DNA of 57,524 nucleotides from Nitrosospira sp. Nl5 (GTDB lineage Bacteria; Pseudomonadota; Gammaproteobacteria; Burkholderiales; Nitrosomonadaceae), in assembly GCF_900102495.1 (NCBI RefSeq), contig NZ_FMVQ01000016.1:1-57524 (forward strand), given 5' to 3'. The notes below the pieces were generated by a model. That model ran no database searches and was not told the DNA's origin. It saw only the letters and a program-made list of their open reading frames with translations. Position numbers and translations under genes: made by a program. This document shows positions 14,314 through 35,147 of this stretch, one piece after another; position 1 is the first letter of the stretch; each line of letters starts with the position of its first letter.

Positions 14314-14356
14314 TTTGGACAGCGGCACAAGTGTCATTTAATTCTGGAGCAAAAAC

Positions 14357-14746
14357 ATGAGTATTCCAAATAATTTAAAATATACCAAATCGCACGAATG
14401 GGTAAGGCTTGAAGACGATGGCATCGTGACGGTCGGTATTACCCCGCATGCACAAGAGTTACTGGGAGATATGGTGTTCGTGGAAACGCCGGATATAGGG
14501 CGCAAACTCGACCAGGGAGAAGAATGCGCCGTCGTGGAATCGGTCAAGGCGGCAGCCGACGTGTACGCACCTATTTCGGGAGAGGTAACAGCAGCCAACC
14601 CCGACCTGGAAACGGCCCCGGAAAAAATTAATCAGGATGCCTATGCAGCATGGCTTTTCAAACTAAGGCCGGTAAATGTCGCCGATCTGAACAATCTGCT
14701 GGATGCAGCAGGTTACCAGAAACTACTCGAAAGCGAGGAAGATTAA
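14357..14746 (+). CDS. gcvH: Glycine cleavage system H protein
   Basis: A 129-residue lipoyl carrier. Lys64 in [12 protein letters not shown] is the lipoylated residue, and the flanking [12 protein letters not shown] is typical. It shuttles the aminomethyl group between the P and T proteins and the dihydrolipoyl dehydrogenase. It lies 43 bases after gcvT in the riboswitch-controlled operon. No gcvL/lpd is in the window. Confidence 0.97.
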
Positions 14747-14850
14747 TCAAGCCGTGAGCCGTCGAAAATGAAATACGGATAATATTCTCAGACTTTACGT
14801 TTTCACTCCCTACGTTTCATTTTTCATGACAATGACCTACGGAACAAATC

Positions 14851-22365: not shown

Positions 22366-22442
22366 GCGCCCATAGCTCAGCTGGATAGAGTACCGCCCTC
22401 CGAAGGCGGGGGTCACACGTTCGAATCGTGTTGGGCGCGCCA
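22366..22442 (+). tRNA. tRNA-Arg (anticodon CCG)
   Basis: A complete 77-nt tRNA including the encoded CCA. The acceptor stem GCGCCCA/TGGGCGC, D-loop GCTCAGCTGGATAGAG, anticodon stem CCGCC/GGCGG with loop CTCCGAA (anticodon CCG, reads CGG) and T-loop GTTCGAATC are all present. Its 3' part is the attachment site of the adjacent 10-kb element, and remains intact because the element supplies the same 3' sequence. Confidence 0.96.
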
Positions 22443-22443
22443 T
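22394..22443 (+). repeat. attL: 50-bp direct repeat (tRNA-Arg 3' end)
   Basis: It runs from the anticodon stem through the CCA end of tRNA-Arg plus one base and is identical over 50 bp to 32387-32436. It includes the anticodon and T arms, the usual crossover region for tyrosine integrases. Confidence 0.95.
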
Positions 22444-22486
22444 AAAATCAATAGCTTATTTAACACATCAATGCGGCAAGCTACTC

Positions 22487-22507
22487 CGTGTCAGCACAGT
22501 GTCAGCA
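22487..22507 (+). repeat. Left integrase arm-site candidate
   Basis: The 21-base sequence CGTGTCAGCACAGTGTCAGC(A) contains GTGTCAGCA twice, 11 bases apart. The same 21 bases occur in the same orientation at 32239-32259, just inside the other end of the element. Paired short repeats inside both att sites are typical arm-type binding sites for tyrosine integrases. Confidence 0.7.
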
Positions 22508-22528
22508 ATTGGCTCATTAAGTAGGCCA

Positions 22529-22550
22529 TAAAAAACCCGCCGAAGCGGGC
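22529..22550 (-). terminator. Rho-independent terminator after the GNAT gene
   Basis: On the minus strand GCCCGC TTCG GCGGGT is followed by a T run (TTTTT), 10 bases downstream of the GNAT stop codon. It closes the leftward transcription of the element before the tRNA. Confidence 0.85.
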
Positions 22551-22559
22551 TTGGGTTTG

Positions 22560-23123
22560 CTACGATATTTTATGTAGGTCTATAAACATCAGAGGGCATT
22601 TTCGACTTTTATTTTCTGGCGTATCAAGCAAAGTGAATCCGCATTTCTTGTAAAAACCGATGGAGGCATTTTTTGCATCCACGACAAGAAAACGGCAACC
22701 GACGTTTTCCATGACTAAGCCTCTGGTGAGGGAAATCGAGAAGCTAATTAACTCAGCTCCAATACCTTGCCCTTGTAAACTTTGATCTACTGCCAATCGG
22801 GCAATTTTTATGCATGGATAACCGATATATTGAAAATCGGGGACAGCGTGCTCGTTTCCCTGCTCAAGCTCAATTTGGCTGCATATGAGAGAGACGTAAC
22901 CTACAATGATGGCAGGCTTTTCTTCGTCAATTACAACCCACGTCTTAGTGATGTTCTGCTCGTGAAACTTTCGGGCCTCCCGTTTCAGGAAATTTTTCAG
23001 CGGAACATAATCTGAGTGACCAAGAGAAAGCCGGGCAACATTGTCACCCGGCTTTAATTGACGCAATACCAATGACAGGGTGTTATTTGCGCTTGATGCT
23101 GATCCTTGCAAATCCGTTTGCAT
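22560..23123 (-). CDS. GNAT-family N-acetyltransferase, candidate toxin of a two-gene module
   Basis: A 187-residue GNAT protein. The acetyl-CoA-binding segment IARLAVDQSLQGQGIGAELI (motif A, R/Q-x-x-G-x-G/A) and the C-terminal NASIGFYKKCGFTLLD are clear. The start overlaps the upstream 61-residue ORF by 41 bases, so the two are translationally coupled. Small-ORF plus GNAT pairs in this order are known as toxin-antitoxin modules (tRNA-acetylating TacT-like toxins); that function is inferred. A perfect 9-bp hairpin lies within the first coding third (23027-23055). Confidence 0.8.
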   Translation of the reverse strand: MQTDLQGSASSANNTLSLVLRQLKPGDNVARLSLGHSDYVPLKNFLKREARKFHEQNITKTWVVIDEEKPAIIVGYVSLICSQIELEQGNEHAVPDFQYIGYPCIKIARLAVDQSLQGQGIGAELISFSISLTRGLVMENVGCRFLVVDAKNASIGFYKKCGFTLLDTPENKSRKCPLMFIDLHKIS

Positions 23124-23268
23124 TGTATTCTTTAACTAACCTGGTCCCTTCTTCTAAACCTTTTCCTGCCGCTGCGCTAGGACGGCCACGCGTTACCTGA
23201 TCTCGAAACTTTTTTGCATCTTGGCCAGTTAGTCGCACTCCACCAAGAATTGATGTATGTACCGACAT
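23083..23268 (-). CDS. Small basic protein upstream of GNAT gene, candidate antitoxin
   Basis: A 61-residue protein beginning MSVHTSILGGVRLTGQDAKK, basic (RGRPSAAAGKG, ISIKRK). AGGAG lies before the ATG. It overlaps the GNAT gene by 41 bases. It does not look like the ribbon-helix-helix DUF1778 antitoxin normally seen with GNAT toxins, so if it is an antitoxin it belongs to a different family. I do not recognise a named domain. Confidence 0.65.
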   Translation of the reverse strand: MSVHTSILGGVRLTGQDAKKFRDQVTRGRPSAAAGKGLEEGTRLVKEYNANGFARISIKRK

Positions 23269-23674
23269 GATGAATCTCCTAGTTATAAATTATAAGTTAT
23301 TTTTCTTGGGCTACAGCAGATGACGGGCGAGCGAAACCATCATCAGAGATATAAACTAGGGGACGCAGATTAACTTCTAGTCCCCCAAGTATCAATAAGC
23401 TACTGTTTCTTCAGGTGTTTATTTATAAAACGGATAACGCCCGAGTTGATGGGCGTTATGAAAGGATATTGTCAAACATAAATCTAGCTTTAGCAAGCGC
23501 TAAATGAGGTCTTTGTCAAGCCCCTCTCTGTCGCGAATGAAACGGGTAGCGGATTTCTTAGGCATAAAATACCTTAATTGTTACGATTTATGAAAGGGAC
23601 CAGATAGGCGCGGTCTGGAGGCAGAGGCTGTGAACATTTTATGGGGGGTGGGTTTGCCATTCATGCTGTCGGCC
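23269..23674. other. Non-coding stretch with promoter-like and hairpin sequences inside the element
   Basis: This is 406 bases without a convincing gene. On the minus strand, just before the 61-residue ORF, an AT-rich near-palindrome (23281-23298, AGTTATAAATTATAAGTT on the plus strand) contains TATAAT and could be a -10 box with an operator. Two inverted repeats follow: GGGGAC/GTCCCC (about 23359-23385) and a 9-bp stem at 23434-23459. Confidence 0.5.
23434..23459 (-). terminator. Probable terminator after the tail genes
   Basis: A perfect 9-bp stem ATAACGCCC / GGGCGTTAT with an 8-base loop; on the minus strand the stem is followed by CCGTTTT. It lies between the DUF2163-like gene and the GNAT module. 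The T run is offset by three bases, so efficiency is uncertain. Confidence 0.5.
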
Positions 23675-24259
23675 TCAATTTATGCTTCTCTGGAATTTCT
23701 TGCTGAGCCATATCTGAGGATTTGCGATCAGGTCTGTAAGGTAATCAAATCCGGTATCAGTCGGATATCGGCTTTTCTGTTGCGCCGCGTTCAGTCTCAA
23801 TCCTGGCTGTTTCTTTAGACCGTAGGCACTCGTCTCAGCTTTCAAAGTAATACCACCTTCTTCCCCATCAACCGCTACGGCCATTGTATCCATGATCCCG
23901 CGCCAGCAAATTACCGGAGTCCCTACAGGCTGAAATGACTCGTCCAGAGGACAGAAATACATCTTTGCGTTTCTGCCCCGATATTGCTCTACGTCTCCGA
24001 CAGCCAGAGCCAGGACGGAATGCTGAGCAACGTTCAGGTTGAAGGTCAGGGACTTGGACTCAACCCCTTCCGCTTCTTCGACGGCGCTAATTGCGCCCAT
24101 ACTTCCCAGACCGATCCATTCGTACCCGCCCCAGGTAAGGGTAATATTCGCCGAGCAAATGCGCGCAGTAGAATCGCGAAAATCCAGCTCGACAAAATAA
24201 ACCGTCCTGGTTACCGGCTTCTCAAGCTCCGACTGTTGTGATGAATCAAGAGTTGTCAC
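23675..24259 (-). CDS. Phage tail protein, DUF2163-like
   Basis: A 194-residue protein that resembles the DUF2163/BR0599 group of phage tail-tip assembly proteins: an N-terminal beta domain (YFVELDFRDSTARICSAN, then WGGYEWIGLGSMGAISAVEE), and a W-R-G-x-M/I-D segment near residue 120. Start is GTG 24259, preceded by AGAGGA. In siphophages this gene is normally upstream of the J-like gene; here it is downstream, after a retropepsin-like gene. Confidence 0.65.
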   Translation of the reverse strand: MTTLDSSQQSELEKPVTRTVYFVELDFRDSTARICSANITLTWGGYEWIGLGSMGAISAVEEAEGVESKSLTFNLNVAQHSVLALAVGDVEQYRGRNAKMYFCPLDESFQPVGTPVICWRGIMDTMAVAVDGEEGGITLKAETSAYGLKKQPGLRLNAAQQKSRYPTDTGFDYLTDLIANPQIWLSKKFQRSIN

Positions 24260-24273
24260 GGTTTCAATCCTCT

Positions 24274-24717
24274 TTAGATGGGTACGCTAAAAGTAAACTC
24301 GGTATTCCCGTTCCTGTTCGTTATCGAGAAGTCGCCGGCTGAAATCACATCCATGCCGATTAATAGGTCCCACCATACATCGCCTGGATTCTTCGAGACT
24401 ACAGTCAATTCATGAATGGTAATCGCAGAGGGCAGAGAGAGGTTTATCACATAAGCCTCACTCTTCTCCAGCCCGTTTACACCTTGTGTAAATACTGACC
24501 TTATAGCCCTTATAGGTTTTAAGCCGCAGGCTTTGACGACGCGCTGAGTGATTACCGATTTGGTCGCACCGGTGTCCCAGCAAGCTTTAAATTCAATTCT
24601 TGGGCATTCAGGAGTTCCATTGGCCGGATTGAATCCTTGAGAAACATGGCAAGGCGTGGATAGGGCTGTCAATAACCCGCCTTCAGATTTAACAGTAAAG
24701 CTTCTGTCCATTAACAT
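24274..24717 (-). CDS. Retropepsin-like aspartic protease
   Basis: A 147-residue protein with the aspartic-protease signature ACWDTGATKSVITQ: D48-T49-G50-A51. The second family motif, LIGMDVISAGDF (120-131), matches the L-x-G-x-D/D-flap end strand of retropepsins. As in retroviral proteases a single half-site implies action as a homodimer. ATG overlaps the stop of the upstream tail gene, and the next tail gene follows after 14 bases, so it is co-translated with morphogenesis genes. Its target is unknown; maturation of the element's capsid or tail is a hypothesis. Confidence 0.75.
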   Translation of the reverse strand: MLMDRSFTVKSEGGLLTALSTPCHVSQGFNPANGTPECPRIEFKACWDTGATKSVITQRVVKACGLKPIRAIRSVFTQGVNGLEKSEAYVINLSLPSAITIHELTVVSKNPGDVWWDLLIGMDVISAGDFSITNRNGNTEFTFSVPI

Positions 24718-25772
24718 AGTCCTTCTATGGGCTCATCGCAGACATTGGCCGCCGTGATGATATGAGGGAGTGGAATATCAGACGGATCGACATTGCACAT
24801 GGGTGAGGTCAAATAGTCGTAAATCGCCAGCGCCGGGTTCTGACTCCAGGCCGTCAGGCCGGTCCGGGGATCGTAGAGTTTTTTGCCTTTCATCAGCACG
24901 CTGATATCCGGTAAGCCGCCCTGAAACTCGGCCTGTCTCAAATCGAGCCGTATCACCGTATATGTGAAGCCGCGCAGCACAGAGGTTGCTGACCACTTGG
25001 CGGGACACTCGGTAAGCAATGAAGCATCGGCTGGATCGTCTGACGTGCCTAGGTGCTTCTTTACCCTGACTTGCGATGTGTTTTTCTGGTACTGGTATGT
25101 GACCCGGTAATCGATAACCTGCACGCCAACTATCGCCGGGTTTGCCGGGGGCCGTACGGAAACCGTACCGGTCACGGTAATCGTATTTCCTGACCGCGTG
25201 TAGGCTGCCTCTCTTTGTTCTGTCCAGGAGACGCTAGGCCTATTCAGATCAGTGAAACGTGCCTGCGCGATGACCTTGACCGCGCTGCTCGGCGCATGCG
25301 CGAGCGTGAACGGTGATGTGGCGAAGGTCTCGGTTATATTCTCGGTGCTTGTTGAAACGAAATAGTCGCCGCTCGTGACAAAGCCGTCAGAATCGAGCGG
25401 GCCGAGCGGCTTGTTATTGATATAAACCTCTTCAATCGATTCAGACTCATGCGCGGCATGGACGCAGACGAGATGCTTGTATTCTTCGTTCAGCCCGCTT
25501 ATCAGAATGGCGACTACATCAGAGCCGACCTTGCTCCTGCCATAGACGTATCGGTGCGGTGCATCGGTAGCGACTCGCGTTATCGTCCGGTCTTGCAGGC
25601 TATTTAGAAAATCCTCACGGGCCCTCGCAGCTGCACGCTTCGCTTTCTTTGCCGCCTTCTTTTGCTGGACAGCGCCGAATACTGTAGTGCCGATAGTTAA
25701 GGCGATAGAGGCGACAGTGACCGCTATTTCAAACGCCGTCATACCCGCTATCGCTAAAATTACTGGTGGCAT
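24711..25772 (-). CDS. Phage tail-tip (J-like/host specificity) protein, truncated
   Basis: A 353-residue protein. The N-terminus has a hydrophobic stretch (about 3-35) followed by a lysine/alanine-rich segment, then a beta-rich region with RYVYGRSKVGSDVVAIL and PLGPLDSDGFV. Near the end it has AWSQNPALAIYDYLTS and ANVCDEPIEGLC, which in lambda J-like proteins lie only a third of the way along a product of about 1,000 residues. The frame stops there, losing the receptor-binding remainder. It overlaps the retropepsin gene by 7 bases. Whether the truncation is decay or a functional minimal form is unclear. Confidence 0.7.
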   Translation of the reverse strand: MPPVILAIAGMTAFEIAVTVASIALTIGTTVFGAVQQKKAAKKAKRAAARAREDFLNSLQDRTITRVATDAPHRYVYGRSKVGSDVVAILISGLNEEYKHLVCVHAAHESESIEEVYINNKPLGPLDSDGFVTSGDYFVSTSTENITETFATSPFTLAHAPSSAVKVIAQARFTDLNRPSVSWTEQREAAYTRSGNTITVTGTVSVRPPANPAIVGVQVIDYRVTYQYQKNTSQVRVKKHLGTSDDPADASLLTECPAKWSATSVLRGFTYTVIRLDLRQAEFQGGLPDISVLMKGKKLYDPRTGLTAWSQNPALAIYDYLTSPMCNVDPSDIPLPHIITAANVCDEPIEGLC

Positions 25773-26043
25773 TTATAAGACCTCTTTCAATGGCGCGTTA
25801 AAGGTATATGTGTAGTTCATTCGGTTGCCGGGGTAGTTCAAGCGCCATTTGAATTCTTTTGAAATATGGGAAATTTTGTCTGCGTGAGATGGGGCGCGGT
25901 GTCCATGGGGAAACCCCCCAGCCTTTTGAGCCGGGGGTCTCTTTGCCCGCCGCGCAGACAAGGAAGACCGCCGCAGGCATTCGGTGTTATCGCACGAACC
26001 GACTAACCGGGCGAGTTTAAGGCCTCGCCTGCCCAGCCTGCGT
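25773..26043. other. Gap between capsid and tail genes, probable deletion junction
   Basis: 271 bases with only a low-complexity, basic 94-codon frame (SSLSARRAKRPPAQKAGG) that I do not accept as a gene. In tailed phages this interval holds head-completion, tail-tube, tape-measure and other genes. The GAGG ribosome site of the J-like gene lies at its left end. Confidence 0.45.
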
Positions 26044-27327
26044 TTAGGGTTTGACACCAGTCACCACAGAGAGCGCTGCCGGATAAGTCGCCGCGGCATC
26101 TACTCGTGTATGGCACATGAAACCTATTTCTCCTGTCCCGGCGAAGTTCTCTTTCAGAAGCTGAATCGAAACGCCTTCACGCATGAAGTAGATAAACTTC
26201 GAGAAGTCCCCGATATAAATTTCCGTGCAATCGCTGGATGATCCGACTGTCAGATTGTTGGGTATCTGGCTGGTTGCGATGAACTTGGTATTGTCGAGAA
26301 TGGCAGGCGCGCGGCGTGGCTGGTTCGTGGTATCGAGTAGCCCTGCCAGTACTGTCATTGAGCGCGGGCTCATAATCGCACCTGTCGGCATTGGTGCATC
26401 AGCAGCGAGCAGCGCATTCGTGGCGCTTATGAAATTAGCGTATGCCGTGGTAGCCAATGAAGCGCCGTTGGCGCCGTTCGTTACTGCCTGGATACCGGTT
26501 GTGTTGAGCATGCCGCGAATCTCGGGATCTGTTCCTGTGCCACGCAAGCCTGCCCGGTCCAGTTCTTTGGCGAAAGACTGGGCAATGGCGTTAAATAGTG
26601 CTTGATCGAGGTTGCTGGAGTCCGCCAGCAGTTCACGGCTGATCTTGAAGTAGAAACTCAGCGATTGAGGGGTAATATCCACACCTCGGAAAACGGGGTC
26701 GCTGGCTGCAACGGTACCAGCTTCCAGTCGCCAGGCAGCTGTAGGGATGGTGCTGATTGCCGCGATGCGGTAATTTTTTGCGCCCTGCTCAAGCCGGGCT
26801 ATACCCGCGCCAGCTTGTAACAACGAGCTGTTAGGAACCATTGCTTCAAGCATCTGAAGCTGCAGGTAATGGGGAAGAGTAAAGCCGCCGGCGGTGTCTG
26901 TACAAACGAGCAAGCTATTGCGTACCGGTTCGGTGAGCTTCATGCCGGCCACGCCGCGCATGAATTCGCCTATGCTCGCTTTGGGCTGATGTTCGCTAAA
27001 TCCATCTGGTACAGGAAAGGCGTCTTTGAGTTGGTCGCGGAAGCTGCCATTGCTTGCGTAGGCCACCGGTATCTTTTTGCCGCTATCGGCATTGCGCCAC
27101 TCTGTACCCGCCGCCCGAACGCCGCCCCCTAATTTGGCTTCCATGTCGTCGTTGAGCTTATCCTGTGCCGCGTTTATCTGCCGGTCGAGTGAATCAATAT
27201 TCGCCATATTCACATCAAACTCTTTTTGAACGGCATCAAAAGCTTTGCCTGGATTCTGGTCTATCAGATCACGGTTTGCACGGGCCAGCGCGTACCTGCT
27301 TTCGCGCAACTGTTTAATGTTCGACAT
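26044..27327 (-). CDS. HK97-family major capsid protein
   Basis: A 427-residue capsid protein. The first 70 or so residues are helical/charged (RESRYALARANRDLIDQNPG, DSLDRQINAAQDKLND), like the scaffold delta domain of HK97 gp5. Then come FTLPHYLQLQMLEAM, a P-domain segment FYFKISRELLADSSN, GTGTDPEIRGMLN and the A-domain GDFSKFIYFMREGVSIQ, all typical of the HK97 fold. No prohead protease or portal gene adjoins it. Translation starts at ATG 27327 behind a strong hairpin with U8, and the Shine-Dalgarno AAGGA is inside that hairpin. Confidence 0.92.
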   Translation of the reverse strand: MSNIKQLRESRYALARANRDLIDQNPGKAFDAVQKEFDVNMANIDSLDRQINAAQDKLNDDMEAKLGGGVRAAGTEWRNADSGKKIPVAYASNGSFRDQLKDAFPVPDGFSEHQPKASIGEFMRGVAGMKLTEPVRNSLLVCTDTAGGFTLPHYLQLQMLEAMVPNSSLLQAGAGIARLEQGAKNYRIAAISTIPTAAWRLEAGTVAASDPVFRGVDITPQSLSFYFKISRELLADSSNLDQALFNAIAQSFAKELDRAGLRGTGTDPEIRGMLNTTGIQAVTNGANGASLATTAYANFISATNALLAADAPMPTGAIMSPRSMTVLAGLLDTTNQPRRAPAILDNTKFIATSQIPNNLTVGSSSDCTEIYIGDFSKFIYFMREGVSIQLLKENFAGTGEIGFMCHTRVDAAATYPAALSVVTGVKP

Positions 27328-27373
27328 AAAAAAAATCCTTACGAGTTAGAAAGTTATATTTTCTCGTAAGGAT
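27328..27373 (-). terminator. Hairpin-U8 attenuator directly before the capsid gene
   Basis: A perfect 11-bp stem on the minus strand (ATCCTTACGAG / CTCGTAAGGAT) with a 17-base A/T-rich loop is followed by eight T and then the capsid ATG. It has the form of an intrinsic terminator, and its right arm contains AAGGA, the probable ribosome binding site. Capsid expression would therefore need either antitermination or opening of the stem. Confidence 0.75.
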
Positions 27374-27401
27374 AGGGCGCACTGCAATTATGCAAAATGG
27401 T

Positions 27402-27632
27402 TCAATTTGTATCAGAATGCGCGCCTCCGCTCCTTTCACGTGCTTCTAGCTCCTTCCTGGCTATCCATATGCGAATCTCTCGCGCCTGCACCATTCTTAT
27501 ACCCGGCGCCAACTCTATAAATCGTGGGAACGTCGGGTCTCTTTTCATGATTCGCCCCAAGGTGTGCCGGCTGAATCCGAGCATATCGGCCACGCCTTTT
27601 TTTCTGAGGAGTTTGTCGTCAGATATAGTCAT
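27402..27632 (-). CDS. AlpA-family/excisionase-like HTH regulator
   Basis: A 76-residue DNA-binding protein: LLRKKGVADMLGFSRHTLGR is a winged-helix (MerR-like) HTH and FIELAPGIRMVQAREIRIWI the wing and following helix, as in AlpA/prophage CP4-57 regulators. AlpA-type proteins activate integrase/excisionase genes or act as excisionases. It overlaps the upstream gene by one base and is the last gene before the capsid attenuator. Confidence 0.82.
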   Translation of the reverse strand: MTISDDKLLRKKGVADMLGFSRHTLGRIMKRDPTFPRFIELAPGIRMVQAREIRIWIARKELEARERSGGAHSDTN

Positions 27633-27949
27633 CAGTGAATATTCCTTCTGGGCGCCTTTGCGGTCAGCGTCGCCTTTGAAGAACCTAACCGGGCGGTGTG
27701 TGCCTTTAACATAGCGGTAAATGCAGCATGTCCCAGCGCTTCAAAAGACTTGTCGGCAGCCATGACGGAAAGGGCGGCCGTTACCTGCTCCATAGGCTGC
27801 TCGGCATCGAGTAAAAAGTTTTGCAGTAGCGTGTCAATGGCAGATTTATTTGTCATTTTTTTCCTTAGTTTGTGGCTGCGGCTTATCAGAGCAAAGGTGA
27901 GCTTACGGTTGCCGACTGCCCTTGCTATGCTTTTAAGAGTAGGCTTCAT
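27632..27949 (-). CDS. Hypothetical protein
   Basis: 105 residues if started at ATG 27949 (ATGA overlap with the upstream gene); a second ATG at 27856 has a better ribosome site (AAGGA, 5-base spacing) and would give a 74-residue product beginning MTNKSAIDTLLQNFLLDAEQ. The C-terminal part is alpha-helical and basic. No recognised domain. Located in a chain of overlapping genes of the element. Confidence 0.55.
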   Translation of the reverse strand: MKPTLKSIARAVGNRKLTFALISRSHKLRKKMTNKSAIDTLLQNFLLDAEQPMEQVTAALSVMAADKSFEALGHAAFTAMLKAHTARLGSSKATLTAKAPRRNIH

Positions 27950-28383
27950 GCTACTTTCCTCTGCTCGTCAGGAAGCCCAAGGCTGCGTTCTTTTGCCGTG
28001 GTTGAGGGGTTGGCTTCACCGACTATCTTTAATTCGCTCTCTGTGCTGTATTGCTCAATTACTTGCAATAGCGCGAGTCCGTCATAGTTGACCTTTGGTA
28101 TTTGCATATCGAACGTGCCTTTACCTCTAATCCCAATGGTCACCAGGACAGGATCGGTGCTAGCGTCATTGCAAAGAATGGCGTACTTTTTTTCTGGCTC
28201 ATGTTTGAGCATTGCCAGTACGCGCTGATCTCGCAATTCAAAGAGAATGGCCGGTTTATTTTCCCTGATTGTTTCTAACCAGTTATCTATTACAGCCTGG
28301 TCTCCAATGATGTCGATGTTGCCTTCAGGGGAAACGGATAAGGTCAGTCCGTCAGCAGTGAGTCGCTCAAGGATTGCACTCAT
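27946..28383 (-). CDS. Protein with TubC-like N-terminal docking domain
   Basis: 145 residues. The N-terminus (ILERLTADGLTLSVSPEGNI, then IRENKPAILFELRDQ, to about residue 50) has the pattern of TubC_N docking domains: short helix, GLxLxVxxxG turn, and a final helix with K-x-x-I. Such domains normally mediate protein-protein contacts in megasynthases but are also found in mobile-element proteins. The rest is unknown. It starts with ATGA overlap after the replication-type gene. Confidence 0.6.
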   Translation of the reverse strand: MSAILERLTADGLTLSVSPEGNIDIIGDQAVIDNWLETIRENKPAILFELRDQRVLAMLKHEPEKKYAILCNDASTDPVLVTIGIRGKGTFDMQIPKVNYDGLALLQVIEQYSTESELKIVGEANPSTTAKERSLGLPDEQRKVA

Positions 28384-28922
28384 ACTGTTACCTTTACTTT
28401 GTTGAGTTCTGCTTCGTATTCAGCTATCCAAGGATCGGGATCAACTTCTTTTACTAAAGACGTATTTGATTGAAGAGTATTGGATCGAAGAGTATTTAAA
28501 GAGCCTATTGGGGTAGGTAATGGGCTGCCTATTGGGGTAGGTAATGGGGTAGCTATATCATCAGAAGTCTTACTCCATCTGCGTTTCGCGCCTTTCTTGC
28601 CTCCATCAGAAAGCTTTGATCTCCGTTTTGTTTGTTTTGCCCAATATTCCTCTAACTGAGGGGAAATAAGCTCACCTTTGACCTCTCTAAAGAAGGAAAG
28701 CACTCTGTCGGTGAGGCCGGCTTCAACTTGCTCAACGGGATACCCCAGGTACTTTGCAAGCGATTCAGGGTCAGCTGGGACAGATCCATTGGACCAGCAC
28801 TCCAATAGAATGGATATCCACACGAACCGCTCGAGAGGCGACATTAGGCGGTAACGCTTATCGGACAAGATATTGCTGGCATACAGAGGAAACCAGGGCA
28901 AGTCATCACGGTATTGGCTCAT
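28380..28922 (-). CDS. Phage replication-type protein, DUF1376/YdaU-like
   Basis: 180 residues. The N-terminus DLPWFPLYASNILSDKRYRL followed by ERFVWISILLECWSNGSVPAD is typical of DUF1376 (YdaU) proteins at replication-initiation positions of phages. A basic segment (KTKRRSKLSDGGKKGAKRR) and a repeated PLPTPIGS unit (two copies, encoded by a 24-base tandem DNA repeat near 28503-28553) form a linker. Start and stop overlap the neighbours by four bases each. Confidence 0.75.
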   Translation of the reverse strand: MSQYRDDLPWFPLYASNILSDKRYRLMSPLERFVWISILLECWSNGSVPADPESLAKYLGYPVEQVEAGLTDRVLSFFREVKGELISPQLEEYWAKQTKRRSKLSDGGKKGAKRRWSKTSDDIATPLPTPIGSPLPTPIGSLNTLRSNTLQSNTSLVKEVDPDPWIAEYEAELNKVKVTV

Positions 28923-29230
28923 GGCTTACCTCCCATCAAGTTCTCGTACCGGTCCCTCCAGTATCGGGCAAGCCTTTTTGCTTCTCTTGCCTCGTTCTGC
29001 ATCCCCCGGTGCCGCTCTTCCAGTACAGTTACCAGAGCGGCTAGCTTATTCTTCTCTTTAACTGCAGAAGCCAGCAGATCCTCCGATTCCAAAATCTTGG
29101 TCATGGAGTTGCTGTCTTTGATCGCTCCATCGAGTTGGCTGACAATTTCGCCGAACTCTTCTTTGCTATAGAGCGCCATGCCTGTGGGAATATCGAGTTT
29201 TGCGTCGCCGCTCAAATTATTCTGGTTCAT
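28919..29230 (-). CDS. Hypothetical coiled-coil protein
   Basis: 103 residues. The middle and end (about 35-95: TKILESEDLLASAVKEKNKL, VLEERHRGMQNEAREAKRLA) are strongly helical with heptad-like spacing. No named family. ATGA overlaps at both ends place it in the replication/regulation operon of the element. Confidence 0.6.
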   Translation of the reverse strand: MNQNNLSGDAKLDIPTGMALYSKEEFGEIVSQLDGAIKDSNSMTKILESEDLLASAVKEKNKLAALVTVLEERHRGMQNEAREAKRLARYWRDRYENLMGGKP

Positions 29231-29736
29231 TGATTGCCTCTCCTTTCTTCAGGGAAAGCCGATATAAATGACTCCGTGGTTTGACCGGGCTTGACGAGCG
29301 TTATCTTTTTCCTCAAAGAGCGTTTCCGCTCCTCGACAAACATGTGATGCACATCTTCAACAATCCGGTCAACTTTATCCCGGGCTTCATCGTCACCATC
29401 CATGCCGCGCCATTGCGTCCTATAGCAGTCAGCCTTAGGACTTGGAAAAATTCTAAATTCCTCAATAATTCTTTTATCTTGCTTGCGCTCTTCATGCCAT
29501 CTTCTTAACTGGAATCGCCCACCCTTGATCTTTCTGATTTGAAAATCAAGCTCAGGTTTGAATCCTCCGGCAGGCCAGCCATAAGTAAGCCGTTTGGGTG
29601 CTACAGGAAAATCGTGATCGAGCGCTAGTCCAAGGGAAATTATTTGATCCTTGGTTCCTGTGTAATCTGTATATCTGGGATGATCTGCGGAAATAACGAG
29701 GAATGCTGGCGCGGTCGCGCGTTTAGACTTGCTCAT
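29227..29736 (-). CDS. Hypothetical phage-element protein
   Basis: 169 residues starting MSKSKRATAPAFLVISADHP behind AGGAGA. An upstream in-frame extension to 30021 crosses inverted repeats and a terminator and is rejected. Charged C-terminal half with RRWHEERKQDKR and a Trp/Arg-rich YRTQWRGMDGDDE segment. First gene of the chain of six overlapping genes. I do not recognise a domain. Confidence 0.6.
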   Translation of the reverse strand: MSKSKRATAPAFLVISADHPRYTDYTGTKDQIISLGLALDHDFPVAPKRLTYGWPAGGFKPELDFQIRKIKGGRFQLRRWHEERKQDKRIIEEFRIFPSPKADCYRTQWRGMDGDDEARDKVDRIVEDVHHMFVEERKRSLRKKITLVKPGQTTESFISAFPEERRGNQ

Positions 29737-29805
29737 GGTATTTCTCCTAGCAAAGCGGTTTATGTTTTCCGCTCTCCCCCTGTCAAAGGGGCGGGCGGAC
29801 ACGTG

Positions 29806-29946
29806 CGGGTTGACAGACCGGGCTAGGACCGGCAGGGATCTCTCCCTCCCACACGAGCCACCCAAAAAGGGCATTTCATGTATGACGGACGTAAAAAAAC
29901 CGCTCAGAGGCGGTTGTCCGCCTAGCTTCCGGGCTGTCAAACCCGG
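29806..29946. promoter_or_regulatory. Long inverted repeat with internal terminator, candidate regulatory RNA region
   Basis: The left arm (29806-29827, CGGGTTGACAGACCGGGCTAGG) and right arm (29921-29946) are imperfect reverse complements that can pair over about 22 bp, with an intrinsic terminator in between and a palindrome CACTGATATTCAGTG just right of it. Phage P4 and relatives control replication genes with a structured immunity RNA made from such a region. That role is inferred from layout only. Confidence 0.5.
29893..29915 (-). terminator. Rho-independent terminator in the element regulatory region
   Basis: On the minus strand AACCGC CTCTGA GCGGTT is followed by TTTTT. It lies about 108 bases after the HTH gene stop and 157 before the next gene, so it separates int/HTH transcription from the replication block. 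Confidence 0.75.
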
Positions 29947-30022
29947 CCACTGATATTCAGTGACGAGGAAAGCATAATCCCCAGCTGATGAAGATGTCAA
30001 GAAATGATTTTCTCTGACCATC

Positions 30023-30238
30023 CTACGCCTCTACTGCCGACGTCATTGGCTCGGACAGCCTAGATTGAGCCCAGGCGTTTAAATCGGAAGGGGTATAGAC
30101 GGCACGATGTCCGAATCTGCGATAGGCGGGGCCGCCTCCGACGCTGGCGTATTTTTGAAGGGTAGTGCGGGAAGTCCTGAGACCAAGATTTACAAGGTAA
30201 GCTGCAGCCTCGGCGCGGTCTAAATATCTTTCTTGCAT
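30023..30238 (-). CDS. HTH-domain protein (excisionase/AlpA-like)
   Basis: 71 residues. YLDRAEAAAYLVNLGLRTSRTTLQKYA is an HTH_17-type helix-turn-helix and GPAYRRFGHRAVYTPSDLNA the wing. Such small proteins act as excisionases or transcription regulators in integrative elements. Preceded by an inverted repeat that may be its operator, and followed by the possible regulatory RNA region. Confidence 0.75.
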   Translation of the reverse strand: MQERYLDRAEAAAYLVNLGLRTSRTTLQKYASVGGGPAYRRFGHRAVYTPSDLNAWAQSRLSEPMTSAVEA

Positions 30239-30285
30239 TTACTGGTAACTCCTATCATTGATCGGAGTCGCCAGCTTACATAGAG

Positions 30286-30313
30286 AAATATTTCCTATCT
30301 AGAAGGAATATTT
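30286..30313. promoter_or_regulatory. Imperfect palindrome, candidate operator upstream of the HTH gene
   Basis: AAATATTTCCTATCTAGAAG followed by GAATATTT forms an imperfect inverted repeat (AATATTTCCT vs AGGAATATT). It lies about 50 bases before the HTH gene start, in the only gap between that gene and the preceding one. Confidence 0.4.
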
Positions 30314-30328
30314 ACCCGGTTTTACGGG

Positions 30329-30937
30329 TTATTTTTTCCCTTTGAGCGTTTTCAGATACTCTTCAATAGCGCTACGGGAAAGATGTCGATCGCAGCTTGC
30401 AAATATCAATTCAAGGCAGGACGTGGCCGGAGTCACCGCTGAGCCTTCCCACTGATTTATGGTTATGGGCAGACCGTATGATTCAAAACACCGCACAAGT
30501 GAGTTGGCCGCGTACCAATTCGCAGTTGCTCGTTTTCTCCCTGGCTTACCCGGCTCTTTATCAAGCGCTCCCTCTATCTCATCGATAAGGTAACCCAACA
30601 TTATTTTTAAATTTTCCATCACAGGTGGGGAATCTCGTCTATAGCTGAGTCCCCATAATACCGCGTCAACACTTTGCGGAATCTTTTCGAGTTTTTCCGC
30701 TAACGTAGTTGCGTCTTGCTTCAGATCGGTCAGAGTAGCGCTGAGCTCGCCCGCGCTCAGCTCGTCGGCCTCGCTTCTACAAAGACAACCATAGACCGTA
30801 GCAATATTGCCAATATCATTCACAAAAGAGGTGTCATCCTTTATGGATCGCAGCATTGCGACTTCCGATTTATCGAACTGAATATCTTTCACCAACTCGC
30901 CAGTTTGCGGTTCATAACGGGGTTTAGCGGTTGCCAT
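30329..30937 (-). CDS. Hypothetical protein next to integrase
   Basis: 202 residues, three bases after the integrase stop, so almost certainly co-transcribed with int. The sequence is mostly helical, with VNDIGNIATVYGCLCR, a 30-residue segment LTDLKQDATTLAEKLEKIPQ and a C-terminal SRSAIEEYLKTLKGKK. No family recognised. Confidence 0.6.
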   Translation of the reverse strand: MATAKPRYEPQTGELVKDIQFDKSEVAMLRSIKDDTSFVNDIGNIATVYGCLCRSEADELSAGELSATLTDLKQDATTLAEKLEKIPQSVDAVLWGLSYRRDSPPVMENLKIMLGYLIDEIEGALDKEPGKPGRKRATANWYAANSLVRCFESYGLPITINQWEGSAVTPATSCLELIFASCDRHLSRSAIEEYLKTLKGKK

Positions 30938-30940
30938 TAT

Positions 30941-32236
30941 TTAACCCTCCTTCTTATTGCGTTTAAGGCCAGTAACCTCGGCGAGTGAGTTTTGACCGGC
31001 AGCCCCAGCAAGCCCTGCGGTAACGACCGACGCCGCACGCTCCGCGAGGCCGCTTCGCGCATCCTGGGCCCAATGAACATATTTCTGTGCGGTCGATAGC
31101 TGGCTATGCCCCAGCGCCGTCATAATCTCAGCAGCTTCGGCTCCCTGCATTGCCATATGCGAGGCTAAACTGTGTCGTAGTCCGTGTAAACCAATTCCTT
31201 TCGGCAAGCTGGCCTCGTCTCTAACCTTTTGCCAAACTTTTGAAAGCGCCACTGCTCCAGAGCCCTTAGAAGGCATAAAAACGTAATCGGTAGGGCTGCC
31301 CCCCGGCTGTTGCGAAATAATCGCTTGAGCGGCCGCTGGCAAGCCTATTATTCGCGGCTTCCCGGTCTTTCGGCCTGTCTTGTGCCGTATTGGGGGCAAC
31401 GTGATAATACCTTTCTGCAAATCGACATTTGAATGCAATAAATTCGCTATCTCCCCCCGCCGGGCGCCTGTAAGGGCAATCACACGAATAGCATCAGCGT
31501 GTACAGAGCGAATACGCTTCTCGTTCACCATTCTTTCGAGCGTGCGGAACATACTGGCGTAGTCATCCGCATTCCGCATGATAGTGTCGCGTTTGCCATC
31601 ACTGCCGACTGAAATATCCCTGGCAGGATTAACGGTGGCCAGGCCCTCATCGATCGACCATTTCATAATTGCGCGAAAAAGACGGACAGACATACGCGCA
31701 GCGCCCTCACCACCCCTCACAATGGATCTGCCCCTGCTGCCTGTCTTTATGTCGCGCGCGGTCTTCCCGTCTCGAATGTCAGCAAATGCACGGCGCACAT
31801 CCTCTGCCGTTAATAGCTTTACTGACTTGCTTCCGAGCGTGGGTTTAAGGTGACTGTTTATCCTGCCGCGGTCGACTGCCCGGGTCGAATCTGCTTTCTC
31901 CGAAAACTTCGATGATTCTAGATACAGGTCTAGCAGATGAGCAACGCGGATAGCTTGCCGGTTGGATTGTTTGACGGCTAACGGATCAGCGCCATGCACC
32001 ACATCATGCTGCAATTCACGTGCTTTTTTTCTTGCCTGATCTGCAGTGAGTTTATGGCTTTGCCCTATAGTAACTCTGCGCGATCGATTCTCTTGTGTCC
32101 GGTAGTTGTAGACAAAAGACTTTGTGCCCGAGGGCAAAACAAGGAGACCAAAACCTTTAACTTCGGTATCCCAGATTGTGCGACGTTTCGGCCCGGGTGT
32201 AGCGGCACTGACACTCTTCTTAGTAATTTTCTGCAT
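30941..32236 (-). CDS. int: Tyrosine-type integrase (DUF4102 N-terminal domain)
   Basis: A 431-residue site-specific recombinase. The N-terminal domain (WDTEVKGFGLLVLPSGTKSF) is of the P4-integrase DUF4102 type. The catalytic residues are visible: Arg259 in ALTGARRGEI, Lys in RHKTGRKTG, His351/Arg354 in HGLRHSLASH, His377 in ALGHSQ and the nucleophile Tyr386 in QKYVHW. It is at the right end of the element, 150 bases from attR, with arm-type repeats just before its start codon. It would integrate at tRNA-Arg(CCG). Confidence 0.95.
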   Translation of the reverse strand: MQKITKKSVSAATPGPKRRTIWDTEVKGFGLLVLPSGTKSFVYNYRTQENRSRRVTIGQSHKLTADQARKKARELQHDVVHGADPLAVKQSNRQAIRVAHLLDLYLESSKFSEKADSTRAVDRGRINSHLKPTLGSKSVKLLTAEDVRRAFADIRDGKTARDIKTGSRGRSIVRGGEGAARMSVRLFRAIMKWSIDEGLATVNPARDISVGSDGKRDTIMRNADDYASMFRTLERMVNEKRIRSVHADAIRVIALTGARRGEIANLLHSNVDLQKGIITLPPIRHKTGRKTGKPRIIGLPAAAQAIISQQPGGSPTDYVFMPSKGSGAVALSKVWQKVRDEASLPKGIGLHGLRHSLASHMAMQGAEAAEIMTALGHSQLSTAQKYVHWAQDARSGLAERAASVVTAGLAGAAGQNSLAEVTGLKRNKKEG

Positions 32237-32238
32237 AG

Positions 32239-32259
32239 CGTGTCAGCACAGTGTCAGCA
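32239..32259 (+). repeat. Right integrase arm-site candidate, next to int start codon
   Basis: Identical to 22487-22507. It lies 3 bases upstream of the integrase ATG (minus strand, 32236), so integrase binding here could also repress its own expression. Confidence 0.7.
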
Positions 32260-32386
32260 GGAGATAGTAAAACAATGTTAACCCTCGTATGCTTTTGTCA
32301 ACTAGCAGTAAGGATATTCTATAATAGAATCAAAGGGAAGGTAAGGAGTAGTATTTTTCGGTAAAGAGGGGTAAATAGCTGGGGTT

Positions 32387-32436
32387 CGCCCTCCGAAGGC
32401 GGGGGTCACACGTTCGAATCGTGTTGGGCGCGCCAT
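32387..32436 (+). repeat. attR: 50-bp direct repeat (tRNA fragment)
   Basis: An exact copy of 22394-22443. It lacks the 5' half of a tRNA, so it is not a functional tRNA gene. It marks the right end of the element, about 150 bases beyond the integrase start codon. Confidence 0.95.
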
Positions 32437-32932
32437 TCTTGTCTCACCCATTGAAAAATCTGCTGAGGCCTTGAAAGGCAAGGCCAGAACGGGGTTTGAA
32501 AGCCTTCGCTGCGAGATGTCCGCGCTCCACTCAAACGCAATAACCGCAGACTGGTAATCCCATTTTTCCGGGAAGGTAGAGAGCAATATGGGAGGCAACG
32601 GTAAGGGAGTGCACTCCCGGCGCTATCTCATCCGCTCAAATGACGCCGGACGATAGGCTCAGTTTTCTCAGAGCAAGTTTGGGCCAGGCGCGAGTTCTTG
32701 CGCGCCTTATTAGCCTCTGCACGCATTCTGCAAAAAGGCATGGGCAGGAAATTTTCAGGGGCGGAGTTCGGAGCAGTATAAAAGCACTCATGACCCCTTG
32801 GTGCTTTTCGTAGCGATGAATATGCCCGCTGCGTTCGTCCTTGAGCACTGCTCTAGCAAGATACGCAGCGGCACGGCGAAGTGGCCTTCCGACCGCTTGA
32901 CCTGCCGCTATCCTGTCGACCTGGGCCCTGCC
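32437..32932. other. Non-coding flank right of attR
   Basis: 496 bases with no gene I can support. A hairpin AAAAGCAC / GTGCTTTT (32780-32808) could be a bidirectional terminator. The short frames here have no family resemblance. Confidence 0.5.
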
Positions 32933-33157
32933 TCAGGTTACGCGGATGTAGGAATAGTACGGCTTGACGTACCAGTTCACGAACCGCCCCTTGGACGGTG
33001 CATCCAGAAGATCATCAAACACAGCGCTCGGCACGTTCCTGTAGTCGTAGGTGTCCCCGTCGACGTAGCGCAGCCGCAAGGTTCCACTGCGCGCGTCGTA
33101 GCCCCCGGCCACAACGCTGCTCGAATTGAACGAGATCATTTGTATCCGGCGCGTCAT
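32933..33157 (-). CDS. KTSC domain protein
   Basis: 74 residues. MISFNSSSVVAGGYDARSGT, RYVDGDTYDYRNVPSAVFDD and LLDAPSKGRFVNWYVKPYY match the KTSC domain, a small domain of unknown function often attached to lysyl-tRNA synthetase-like or RNA-related proteins, or free-standing as here. Start could be 33157 or 33139 (MISFNSS); the second is a better family match. It lies outside the mobile element. Confidence 0.8.
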   Translation of the reverse strand: MTRRIQMISFNSSSVVAGGYDARSGTLRLRYVDGDTYDYRNVPSAVFDDLLDAPSKGRFVNWYVKPYYSYIRVT

Positions 33158-33248
33158 ACCAAATACTTGAGGACCATCACAGCCCCTTCCCCCATCAGCT
33201 CACATGGGCGCCGGAACCAAGGAACCGTGCCGGTCGTCAAAAAACCGA

Positions 33249-35147
33249 TCAGATCTGGACGCGTGCCCCCAACTCGAGGACGCGATTAGCAGGTAGCTTA
33301 AAGTATTCAGCGGCGCTACTGGCATTGCGAGCCATGGTTGCAAAAAGCCGCTCCCGCCACGATGCCATTCCGGCACCGGGACTCGGCACGACGATGTCGC
33401 GGCTAAGAAAAAAAGAAGTCTTGAGTGGCTCAAACACGAGTCCGTAGGGTTCGCACATTTCAATCGCATACGGCAGGTTGGGCTGGTCTTTGAATCCGTA
33501 TCGGACAGTAATCTGGTAGCAGTTATCGACCAATTGCTTTACTTCTACGCGCTGGTTCGCCGGAACGCGCGGAGTTTCCATATAAACCACTGTGAGGATC
33601 ACCACGCGCTCATGCAAGACCTGGTTATGGGCGAGATTATGCAGTAACGCATGCGGGACTCCATTCGGATCCGCAGTCAGAAAGATTGATGTCCCGGCCA
33701 CCCGCGTCGGCGGATTGGCAATCAGCGACTCGAGAAAGGGCTGAAGCGGTATGGCGGCCGAGCGCAGATGGTCGAATAAAATCTGGCGCCCGCGATGCCA
33801 GGTAACCATTATGGTAAAGATCACCATCCCGATCGCGAGCGGAAACCAGCCGCCCTGGACGAGTTTCAGAGTCGTGGCGGCGAAGAATATCGTATCAATC
33901 GTGAGAAAAACCCCAGTCGCAAACAGGCACAAAACCCAGGAATAATTCCAGGCATAGCGCAGGACGAAAAATGTGAGGAGTGTTTCAATCACCATCGTGG
34001 CGGTAACGGCAAATCCATACGCCGAGGCGAGGCTGGACGATGAGCCGAACCCCAACACCGCCAAGACGACGGCTACGAGCAGTGTCCAATTAACAAAGGG
34101 GATATATATCTGGCCGATCTTTCGCTCGGAAGTGTACTTGATCTGCATGCGTGGTAAAAACCCCAGCTGGATAGCCTGTTTGGTTACCGAAAACACACCG
34201 GAGATAACAGCTTGCGATGCGATCACCGTAGCGACTGTTGCCAGTCCTACAGCCGGGTAAAGCGCCCAGGCGGGAAACAACAGATAGAAAGGATTGGAAA
34301 TTGCCAGCGGGTTGGAGAGCAGCAGTGCCCCCTGCCCGAGATAATTCAACGTAAGCGCCGGCAATACACATCCGTACCATGCCAAACGAATAGGTTTCGA
34401 GCCAAAGTGCCCCATATCCGCATAGAGCGCTTCTCCCCCCGTCACCGCGAGCACCACAGCGCCAAAGGCAACGAACGCCAGCCACCCATTGTTCAGGCAG
34501 AAAGCAGCGGCGTGCAGCGGATTAAGTGCCGACAATATTTGCGGTGCGGCACCGATATTGACAAGTCCGGCAATCCCAAGCGTACTGAACCATATCAGGG
34601 TGATTGGCCCGAACATGGCGCCAATTCCCCCTGTTCCCCGCTGCTGGAGCACAAAAAGCGCAATCAGCACAGTCAATGTAACGGGCAGCACGTATGGTTT
34701 AAGCAGCGGGGTTGCCACCTCCAGCCCTTCCACCGCACTCAACACGGAGATGGCCGGAGTAATCACTCCGTCTCCGTAGAACAGCGCGGCACCAAAGCCG
34801 CCGACAAGAAACAGGGTATTGTGCAGCTTGGGATTGCTTGCGACAGAGGAGCTGGCGAGCGACAGCAACGCCATAATACCGCCCTCCCCCTTGTTGTCCG
34901 CGCGCAGGATCAACGTTATGTACTTGAGCGACACGACGATCATGAGCGCCCAGAAAATGAGCGAGATAATGCCGATTATGTTGCTGTCGTTGACGGTTAG
35001 CCCGTACATTGGATCAAAAACCGTCTTCATGACGTATAAAGGACTGGTGCCAATGTCGCCGTAGACCACTCCTAGTGCGGCCAGGCTTAAGACGCCCAGA
35101 GACTGTTGGCCAACAGTCCTTTTCGGTTCAGCGTTTTGACTGGTCAT
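33249..35147 (-). CDS. kup: Low-affinity potassium transporter Kup
   Basis: A 632-residue K+/H+ symporter. The family N-terminus LAALGVVYGDIGTSPLYVMK, DNKGEGGIMALLSLA, about 12 membrane helices (to about residue 450), and the long cytosolic C-terminus are all present. It imports potassium with low affinity. It is a single-gene unit. Confidence 0.96.
   Translation of the reverse strand: MTSQNAEPKRTVGQQSLGVLSLAALGVVYGDIGTSPLYVMKTVFDPMYGLTVNDSNIIGIISLIFWALMIVVSLKYITLILRADNKGEGGIMALLSLASSSVASNPKLHNTLFLVGGFGAALFYGDGVITPAISVLSAVEGLEVATPLLKPYVLPVTLTVLIALFVLQQRGTGGIGAMFGPITLIWFSTLGIAGLVNIGAAPQILSALNPLHAAAFCLNNGWLAFVAFGAVVLAVTGGEALYADMGHFGSKPIRLAWYGCVLPALTLNYLGQGALLLSNPLAISNPFYLLFPAWALYPAVGLATVATVIASQAVISGVFSVTKQAIQLGFLPRMQIKYTSERKIGQIYIPFVNWTLLVAVVLAVLGFGSSSSLASAYGFAVTATMVIETLLTFFVLRYAWNYSWVLCLFATGVFLTIDTIFFAATTLKLVQGGWFPLAIGMVIFTIMVTWHRGRQILFDHLRSAAIPLQPFLESLIANPPTRVAGTSIFLTADPNGVPHALLHNLAHNQVLHERVVILTVVYMETPRVPANQRVEVKQLVDNCYQITVRYGFKDQPNLPYAIEMCEPYGLVFEPLKTSFFLSRDIVVPSPGAGMASWRERLFATMARNASSAAEYFKLPANRVLELGARVQI

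Follow-up and report, generated by a model that had tools for sequence, protein, structure and literature searches.

Positions 1 to 57,524 of contig NZ_FMVQ01000016.1 of Nitrosospira sp. Nl5, an ammonia-oxidising soil bacterium, the stretch of 57,524 nucleotides that we analysed and call the window, carry an island of 10,043 bp between its outer attachment (att) ends (22394-32436), inserted at a tRNA-Arg(CCG) gene (Table 1). We took 15 open reading frames (ORFs) of the island as genes, all reading leftward from an inward-facing integrase gene at the right end. Their order of transcription is integrase, orf202, an HTH_17 regulator, a C4 RNA with its target in the 5' part of orf264, and orf103; then a DUF1376-like gene, orf145, orf105, an AlpA-type regulator, a capsid gene and J-N, which encodes the N-terminal part of tail tip protein J; and finally the genes for a retropepsin-like protease and TailB, followed after a non-coding gap by those for a 61-aa protein and a GNAT acetyltransferase. 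An earlier note on this DNA had described a complete insertion with an HK97-type capsid gene and two tail-tip-type genes, and family searches bear out both gene assignments. It had also listed terminase, portal, prohead protease, tape measure and lysis genes as missing, and indeed none of these families matched the 15 ORFs or an ORF in the capsid-J gap (Pfam and PHROGs, E <= 1). The continuous chain of overlapping genes that it saw holds only in part, as larger non-coding gaps lie at 30239-30328, 25773-26043 and 23269-23674. Altogether, we consider the island likely to be a satellite resembling the phage-inducible chromosomal islands (PICIs), one belonging to siphophages like an apparently complete prophage on contig C24 of the same genome. 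This reading is based on the att and empty-site evidence, a recurring orf105-AlpA-capsid block, the conserved J-N and protease genes, a packaging-type site shared with the prophage, and the C4 RNA. Moreover, relatives of the capsid gene lie in small tRNA-linked or att-bounded elements, and a Pfam tally of such loci showed no large terminase or portal family.

Relatives with an empty site agree with the exact att repeats and intact integrase in indicating a complete insertion, as the earlier note had proposed. The tRNA gene and kup are 87 bp apart in G115 and 105 bp apart in G114 (our handles denote genomes by G, contigs by C and loci by L). The flanking order cytochrome c, tRNA-Arg, kup was maintained in all six relatives fetched (22 genomes had a kup match).

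J-N and the protease recur together in the genus. Relatives of J-N were found in 9 of the 125 genomes of the family and relatives of the protease also in 9, with every protease match inside the genus; the pair is present in 7 satellites of 6 genomes and in 5 IMG/VR contigs. The island's J-N is 77% identical to J of the C24 prophage. The satellite frames are short (344-363 aa in four, 438 aa in G099 C14 and 299 aa in the frameshifted G098), and long J frames of 1029-1107 aa occur in three cases (G000 C24, G098 C16 and the distant G057). J-N, typically about 344-358 residues long, ends at the identical point, CDE-x-x-x-GLC (one copy adds P), in all 11 aligned satellite copies, and the motif is missing from the three full-length J proteins. 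The gene sits directly 5' of the protease gene, and in most copies its last codons lie in an overlap with the protease start that could by itself keep them conserved; in G104 and G105 the two do not overlap, yet the J-N end is still identical. The protease motif D[TS]G[AS] is kept in 13/13 copies. By the Nei-Gojobori method, the ratio of nonsynonymous to synonymous divergence (dN/dS) ranged from 0.05 to 0.14 for J-N over four pairs, of which one involved phage J, and from 0.16 to 0.18 for the protease. It was 0.07 for TailB (window against G104) and 0.25 for the DUF1376-like gene; all are rough values because dS was 0.9-3.9. For the capsid (window against G114), TailB (window against C24) and orf145, dS was saturated, with pN of 0.18-0.29. 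J-N and the protease thus look to be under constraint. An AlphaFold model of J-N (mean pLDDT, the predicted local distance difference test, 69.9) was poor over the first 73 residues and ordered up to residue 347, and Foldseek matched it, at low TM-scores, to the tail-tip proteins of T5 (8e-7) and lambda (5e-6), which suggests that the cut falls after a folded unit. Comparison of J-N and TailB with PDB sequences gave nothing useful. By these comparisons the short J gene is no sign of decay; J-N is a satellite gene that is conserved and ends at a fixed point.

The head genes ahead of this pair are exchanged. Gene maps, which covered the tRNA-linked satellites L125-L129 and others, place J-N and the protease behind four kinds of head set. 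No head genes were found in G104; G105, G095 and G099 C14 have a second type of capsid; G099 C11 and the IMG/VR contigs L091, L092, L094 and L095 combine a third capsid with protease and portal genes; and the window and G098 have the window capsid. Gene names were checked by PHROGs for G105, G099 C11 and G104. Gene K, a small gene 5' of J (NlpC-like by eye; phrog_2134), is present in G104, G105, G099 C11 and these four contigs, and a 210-aa ORF in G104 (L125 11228-11860) had no PHROG match. The order J, protease, TailB is common to the island, G104 and G105, and is the reverse of the prophage order, TailB then J. TailB is full length (194 residues against 197 in the prophage copy, 74% identical), and the prophage copy matches phrog_2048 too. 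A single origin of J-N is not supported by a tree of 18 rows, in which satellite copies are mixed with phage J (6 changes, bootstrap 4-6), a pattern that we read as probable recombination with local phages. We do not favour the aspartic protease as a stand-in for the missing prohead protease, because it also occurs beside a normal head protease in L127, L091, L092, L094 and L095, and because it is present in G104, where tblastn found no capsid gene.

The C24 prophage (C24:331166-375138) spans 43,973 bp and has 49-bp att repeats in a tRNA-Asn gene. PHROGs identified an integrase, HNH, small and large terminases (TerS and TerL), portal, head protease, tape measure, TailB, J (1086 aa) and endolysin, and Pfam identified the capsid; the prophage appears complete. 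The island contains a non-coding site that is 79% identical over 67 bp to the prophage HNH-terS gap just 5' of terS. The local alignment score of the island gap 23269-23674 against this prophage gap was 61, a value that none of 500 dinucleotide shuffles reached (maximum 31); the highest score was 36 among 139 other window pieces and 27 among 62 other prophage pieces. Nine aligned sites gave 22 invariant columns. A core pattern built from aligned sites, the island's own included, matched 16 sites when up to two mismatches were allowed, spread over 10 of the 23 genus genomes, and the reversed pattern matched none in the 23. In the island's own genome there are exactly two copies, one in the prophage and one in the island, and the exact pattern occurs in four viral contigs, two phage-like (L148, L151) and two from satellites. 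Phage copies, including those of L148 and L151, sit between HNH and terS. Satellite copies are oriented like the surrounding genes. They lie 5' of terS in L125, L128, L129, L152 and L156, 5' of K in L091 and L094, and at the end of the late genes in the window, L126 and L130; L154, L155 and a second site in L129 show other positions. We read the shared site as a putative cos region and the C24 prophage family as the probable helper. The terS remnant of 21 codons in the island implies that the helper's TerS would be needed. As a separate observation, L155 (G107:C87), a satellite with capsid, protease and portal genes and an int-alpA RNA, has two packaging-type sites about 3.3 kb apart; L129 also has two.

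Foldseek matched an AlphaFold model of the island's capsid protein (mean pLDDT 72.5) to the HK97 prohead (2e-14), and two long predicted N-terminal helices (2-24 and 30-65) ahead of the HK97 fold are in keeping with a delta domain-like region. Within the family's 125 genomes, the closest relatives are in G114 (74%) and G098 (63% and 82% in two frames), with a fragment in G110. In G114 and G098 the integrases are different ones and the replication genes are of RepA type, yet both keep orf105-AlpA-capsid (the G098 AlpA is partial); the island AlpA is 76% identical to the G114 copy. G098 additionally keeps orf145, J-N and the protease, and its capsid and J genes are frameshifted. A search for att sites found no exact repeat of at least 13 bp in the stretches of G114 and G098 compared. 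Outside the family, relatives occur in a Rubrivivax metagenome-assembled genome (L031), the IMG/VR loci L033-L036 and L048-L056, G870 (L089) and G1064 (L090). L031 combines a tRNA-Ser, an integrase, a primase-helicase and the capsid gene. Att-type repeats include 33 bp at both ends of L053 and 46 bp in a tRNA-Lys in L056, and tRNA-Ser ends are repeated over 14 bp in L031 and 15 bp in L089. A Pfam tally covered 15 capsid-relative loci (not L048, L054 and L057), trimmed to their satellite parts, with 119 ORFs of 90 aa or more on the same strand. At E <= 1e-6 it gave 21 families, with 14 matches to capsid and 12 to integrase, and neither a large terminase nor a portal family was among them; at 1e-3 there were 37 families. 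Extra late genes vary, with a small terminase in L089, L049 and L051, and one in L035 that may be the prophage's.

No close phage source of the capsid was found in the phage and plasmid records searched. The window capsid matched 162 of 50,697 phage records, all below 60% identity and at 23-27% among the matches listed, and 80 plasmid records at 23-28% among those listed. The Rubrivivax copy had 201 phage matches, the highest at 32% among the matches listed. Close relatives, own genome included, were found in 2 of 399 genomes of the order (E <= 1e-30), 3 of 369 of the class and 3 of 398 of the phylum (both E <= 1e-40). In IMG/VR viral contigs the single capsid protein returned no loci, and alignment queries returned 14 and 42.

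These relatives show several further arrangements. The capsid is fused in one frame to an N-terminal head-protease domain in L048 (2149-3933) and L049 (6070-7989) by PHROGs, and in L050 by eye; L051 has head protease and capsid as two neighbouring ORFs (by eye). The contigs L048-L051 are 4-10 kb long, and a Nu1-like small terminase lies upstream of the capsid in L049 and L051. A tape measure gene lies behind the capsid in L053 (5759-9487), L089 (10995-13154), L054 (11157-13595) and L152 (7412-9406), the last found by tblastn with a capsid fragment, a packaging-type site and terS. The distant relative in L057 adjoins protease and portal genes (by eye), as in an ordinary phage. In L035 a lone-capsid satellite splits a prophage large terminase gene into parts at 3959-4249 and 13994-15409, the N-terminal part confirmed by PHROG and the C-terminal part by eye; L055 looks similar and is probably also in a terminase gene, with only the C-terminal TerL part seen. 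Broken capsid relatives occur in G110 and G215. The latter genome, of the same order and on one contig, has a broken lone capsid gene (L047, G215:C1:2406669-2407331); genes close to it look infA-like and transposase-like by eye, and it may be what is left of such an element.

Table 1. Features of the island in the window, listed from left to right
Feature	Position	Strand	Evidence and remarks
attL, 50-bp exact direct repeat	22394-22443	+	overlaps 3' end of tRNA-Arg(CCG), 22366-22442
Paired repeat, left end, GTGTCAGCA-CA-GTGTCAGCA	22488-22507	+	20-bp unit just inside island end
GNAT acetyltransferase, accessory	22560-23123	-	PF13508 1.3e-10
61-aa protein 5' of GNAT	23083-23268	-	no family
terS start remnant	23500-23565	-	21 codons, then stop
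Cos-like packaging site, non-coding (putative function)	23578-23643	-	core 23578-23613
TailB tail protein	23675-24259	-	phrog_2048 1.1e-38
Retropepsin-like aspartic protease	24274-24717	-	PF13975 1.7e-8; start overlaps J-N end
J-N, N-terminal hub part of tail tip protein J	24711-25772	-	353 residues; tail-fibre PHROGs 6.8e-31, 3.7e-18
HK97-type major capsid protein	26044-27327	-	PF05065 1.5e-38; PHROG major head 5.5e-41
AlpA-type regulator	27402-27632	-	directly 5' of capsid gene; PF05930 22.2 bits, cut-off 21
orf105, conserved 5' of AlpA	27632-27949	-	homologues in G114, G098, L152
orf145, small conserved ORF of these satellites	27946-28383	-	homologues in G098, L125, L129, L152
DUF1376-like / primosomal-type protein	28380-28922	-	phrog_9327 primosomal 3.7e-9; PF07120 15.9 bits, under cut-off 30.1
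orf103	28919-29230	-	scanned with Pfam and PHROGs
orf264	29227-30021	-	5' part overlaps C4 RNA
C4 antisense (immunity-type) RNA	29787-29869	-	RF01695, 50.4 bits, gathering 45
a1/b1 target of C4 antisense RNA	29926-29977	-	RF03163, 49.3 bits, gathering 46.7
HTH_17 / excisionase-type regulator	30023-30238	-	PF12728 2e-6; phrog_66 1.2e-5
orf202	30329-30937	-	no family below E 0.05
Tyrosine integrase, intact, transcribed inward	30941-32236	-	PF00589 1.9e-20; PF13356 6.4e-17
Paired repeat, right end, 2 x GTGTCAGCA	32240-32259	+	20-bp unit just inside island end
attR, 50-bp exact direct repeat	32387-32436	+	

A C4 RNA is also present in the Nv4 satellite L030 (6511-6593), the one satellite with C4 in an Rfam scan of 15 other loci; the same scan found int-alpA RNA in five (L125, L128, L150, L155, L090) and a weak sRNA-Xcc1 match in L129. 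The orf264 protein probably starts further in, because the 5' part of its frame overlaps the C4 RNA. The DUF1376-like gene, which has homologues in L125, L129 and L152, is presumed to be the replication gene; RepA-type AAA genes were found in the relatives G114, G098, L126 and L128. The 20-bp paired units at the island ends, for which none of 100 shuffles gave two matches, we infer to be integrase arm sites.

Beyond these, GNAT and the small overlapping ORF upstream of it (window 22560-23268) recur together in a second genus member (L125 835-1544), and the 61-aa protein and GNAT may form a toxin-antitoxin module. The tRNA-Arg(CCG)-kup interval is an insertion hot spot: other DNA of 2.3-7.6 kb occupies it in four of six relatives (loci L167, L168, L169 and L172). 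The stretch of about 0.8 kb from attR to kup (32437-33249) contains an ORF with a KTSC domain (32933-33157), which also matches PHROGs, and is possibly the trace of an earlier insertion.

How might such an island exploit its helper? In the mechanism that we propose, induction of the helper would lead the AlpA-type genes and the C4 RNA to switch the satellite on. The integrase would excise it, and it would then replicate, by a gene that is uncertain. The helper's HNH-TerS-TerL machinery would cut at the satellite's cos-like site, the satellite capsid protein would co-assemble with that of the helper and favour small heads, and helper tails would be used. J-N, the aspartic protease and TailB would act at the helper tail tip, either by tip replacement or by interference. 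The best precedent for the head is Ccm, the SaPIbov5 capsid homologue, which joins the helper shell as pentamers, loses its delta domain and forms no shells alone (PMC8569155, PMC5052747). We put Ccm-like head redirection by the lone capsid protein at an even chance and hold a tail-tip role of J-N and the protease to be somewhat more likely. J is a plausible target, since Tai proteins act on J (PMC11364771). A broader proposal is speculative, and we lean against it as a whole: a satellite lineage of ammonia oxidisers might reshape both ends of the helper virion, one with a lone capsid homologue or other head set, the other with a fixed pair of a cut-down J hub and a retroviral-type aspartic protease; recombination would keep the hub in step with local phages. 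The protease would cut the helper's J, its own J or another tip protein, favouring satellite tips or spoiling those of the helper, and the relatives with tape measure genes would suggest that satellites pick up genes for virion size and specificity.

Several observations weigh against a satellite of C24-like phages. No primase family matched the 15 ORFs in Pfam or PHROGs. Satellite J-N copies form no single clade apart from phage J on the tree. Some satellite copies of the packaging-type site stand apart from terS, and the G110 C6 site and a second site on G105 C1 have no identified neighbours. G114 and G098, the two nearest capsid relatives, and L127, L092 and L095 have no site within two mismatches, and the shared site could be a late promoter or pac instead of cos. 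The terS remnant indicates that some loss has happened. Finally, pairwise identity between the island and C24 capsids was 24.1%, and the shuffled control had a mean of 24.1%.

The last two points also bear on an origin by deletion from a C24-type prophage, with the capsid, J and tail genes left over; a prophage reduced in this way was an option that the earlier note had kept. The terS remnant, a J without its fibre part, the frameshifted capsid and J of G098, and the broken capsid relatives in G110 and G215 would fit such decay. However, the capsid does not align with that of C24 above the control, and the J end is identical in 11/11 satellite copies with low dN/dS. Moreover, the order J, protease, TailB, reversed relative to the prophage, is common to G104 and G105, and AlpA, orf105 and orf145 recur in other satellites and not in the C24 prophage stretch searched. 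The search of genus genomes suggested in the earlier note turned up conserved short forms, namely the J-N and protease pair and the orf105-AlpA-capsid block of G114 and G098, and the collections searched held no full-length phage with the island capsid. We therefore regard plain decay as very improbable, and the truncated J-like gene, once taken as its sign, as better explained by a conserved satellite gene. The satellite alternative put forward in that note is strengthened, though its idea that the island makes its own capsid is not. A complete small head built from the island's own capsid protein, with only tails stolen, would resemble L127, L091, L092, L094 and L095, where capsid, protease and portal adjoin similar J-N and protease genes, and L155, which has the same three head genes and in which J-N was not found; some relatives of the window capsid are, in addition, fused to a protease domain (L048, L049). 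The island itself has no head protease, portal, connector or terminase, and Ccm, the studied precedent, was unable to form shells alone (PMC8569155). For want of an own protease, portal and connector, and given this precedent, co-assembly with the helper capsid is more likely; the lone protein more probably alters the helper capsid than builds a shell alone, and we consider a capsid-forming satellite unlikely.

We assign an equally low probability to an immobile island that retains the capsid, J-N and protease genes as an anti-phage defence poisoning head or tail assembly. Tai proteins of prophages and PICIs target J (PMC11364771), Ccm blocks its own helper (PMC5052747), and J-N lacks the C-terminal part of J, all of which would suit a poison. 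Nevertheless, the intact att sites, integrase and packaging-type site favour mobility. Defence is also compatible with a satellite role, and is partly an addition to it rather than a rival.

If the island is a satellite of C24-like phages, what had been an odd 10-kb island becomes a testable satellite-helper pair within one ammonia-oxidiser genome, with a defined candidate packaging site. The comparisons also show a family of satellites in which a tail-hub fragment and an aspartic protease are the conserved late genes and the head genes ahead of them are exchanged; this would add tail-tip remodelling to the known ways in which satellites exploit phages. A lone major capsid gene is present in the late zone of 21 of 29 reference PICIs of Gram-negative bacteria (GN-PICIs; PMC10111431), which lowers the novelty of the earlier note's main point. 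Lone-capsid satellites are thus already known; what is new is the hub-protease pair, together with the host group and the tape-measure carriers. The titles listed in an open-licence library included no phage satellite of ammonia oxidisers, and no Nitrosospira satellite among the prophage titles listed; its listings included no satellite with a pair of J hub fragment and retropepsin or aspartyl protease.

Among known systems, P4-like satellites share with the island a tRNA site, an AlpA/Vis-type regulator and a C4/CI-type RNA. They have an alpha primase and the Sid/Psu capsid genes. None of the P4 alpha primase, Sid and Psu families matched the 15 island ORFs, and unlike P4-like satellites the island encodes a capsid homologue. 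In SaPIbov5, too, a single capsid homologue of the HK97 fold, Ccm, has a delta-like region and goes with a cos-type packaging site, which is putative in the island (PMC8569155, PMC5052747). The island is from a different bacterial phylum. Capsid-forming PICIs (PMC10690885, PMC13230959) are satellites with phage-type structural genes as well, and L127, L155, L091, L092, L094 and L095, with capsid, protease and portal, come close to them. These PICIs have their own portal, protease, connectors, TerS and TerL, in contrast to the capsid gene alone in the island, and a tblastn search of the compared satellites with TerL of C24 detected no large terminase. PICIs embedded in a helper (PMC10111431) are resembled by L035 and probably by L055; the island lies instead in a tRNA gene.

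The closest likeness is to GN-PICIs such as EcCICFT073 and PmCI172 (PMC6092414, PMC10111431), which like the island are about 10 kb long and have an inward integrase, AlpA and, in several, a C4-type RNA. They also share one late-zone capsid gene and captured late genes, which in GN-PICIs are sometimes reversed in order (PMC10111431). GN-PICIs are packaged from a helper-type site, for which the putative cos site common to island and prophage is the candidate here. The capsid genes of GN-PICIs are reported to be dispensable for transfer (PMC10111431, citing PMC6092414), which argues against a vital capsid role. The island differs in having no recognisable primase, a hub fragment, aspartic protease and TailB in its late zone, and another host group and helper. 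Primase is counted among the three essential GN-PICI genes (PMC10111431, PMC6092414), and because it was looked for and not found we call the island PICI-like and do not file it as a GN-PICI, although it would operate in the same manner. Nonetheless, with 10,043 bp and capsid, J-N and TailB as late phage genes, it fits the GN-PICI range of 10-20 kb with few such genes.

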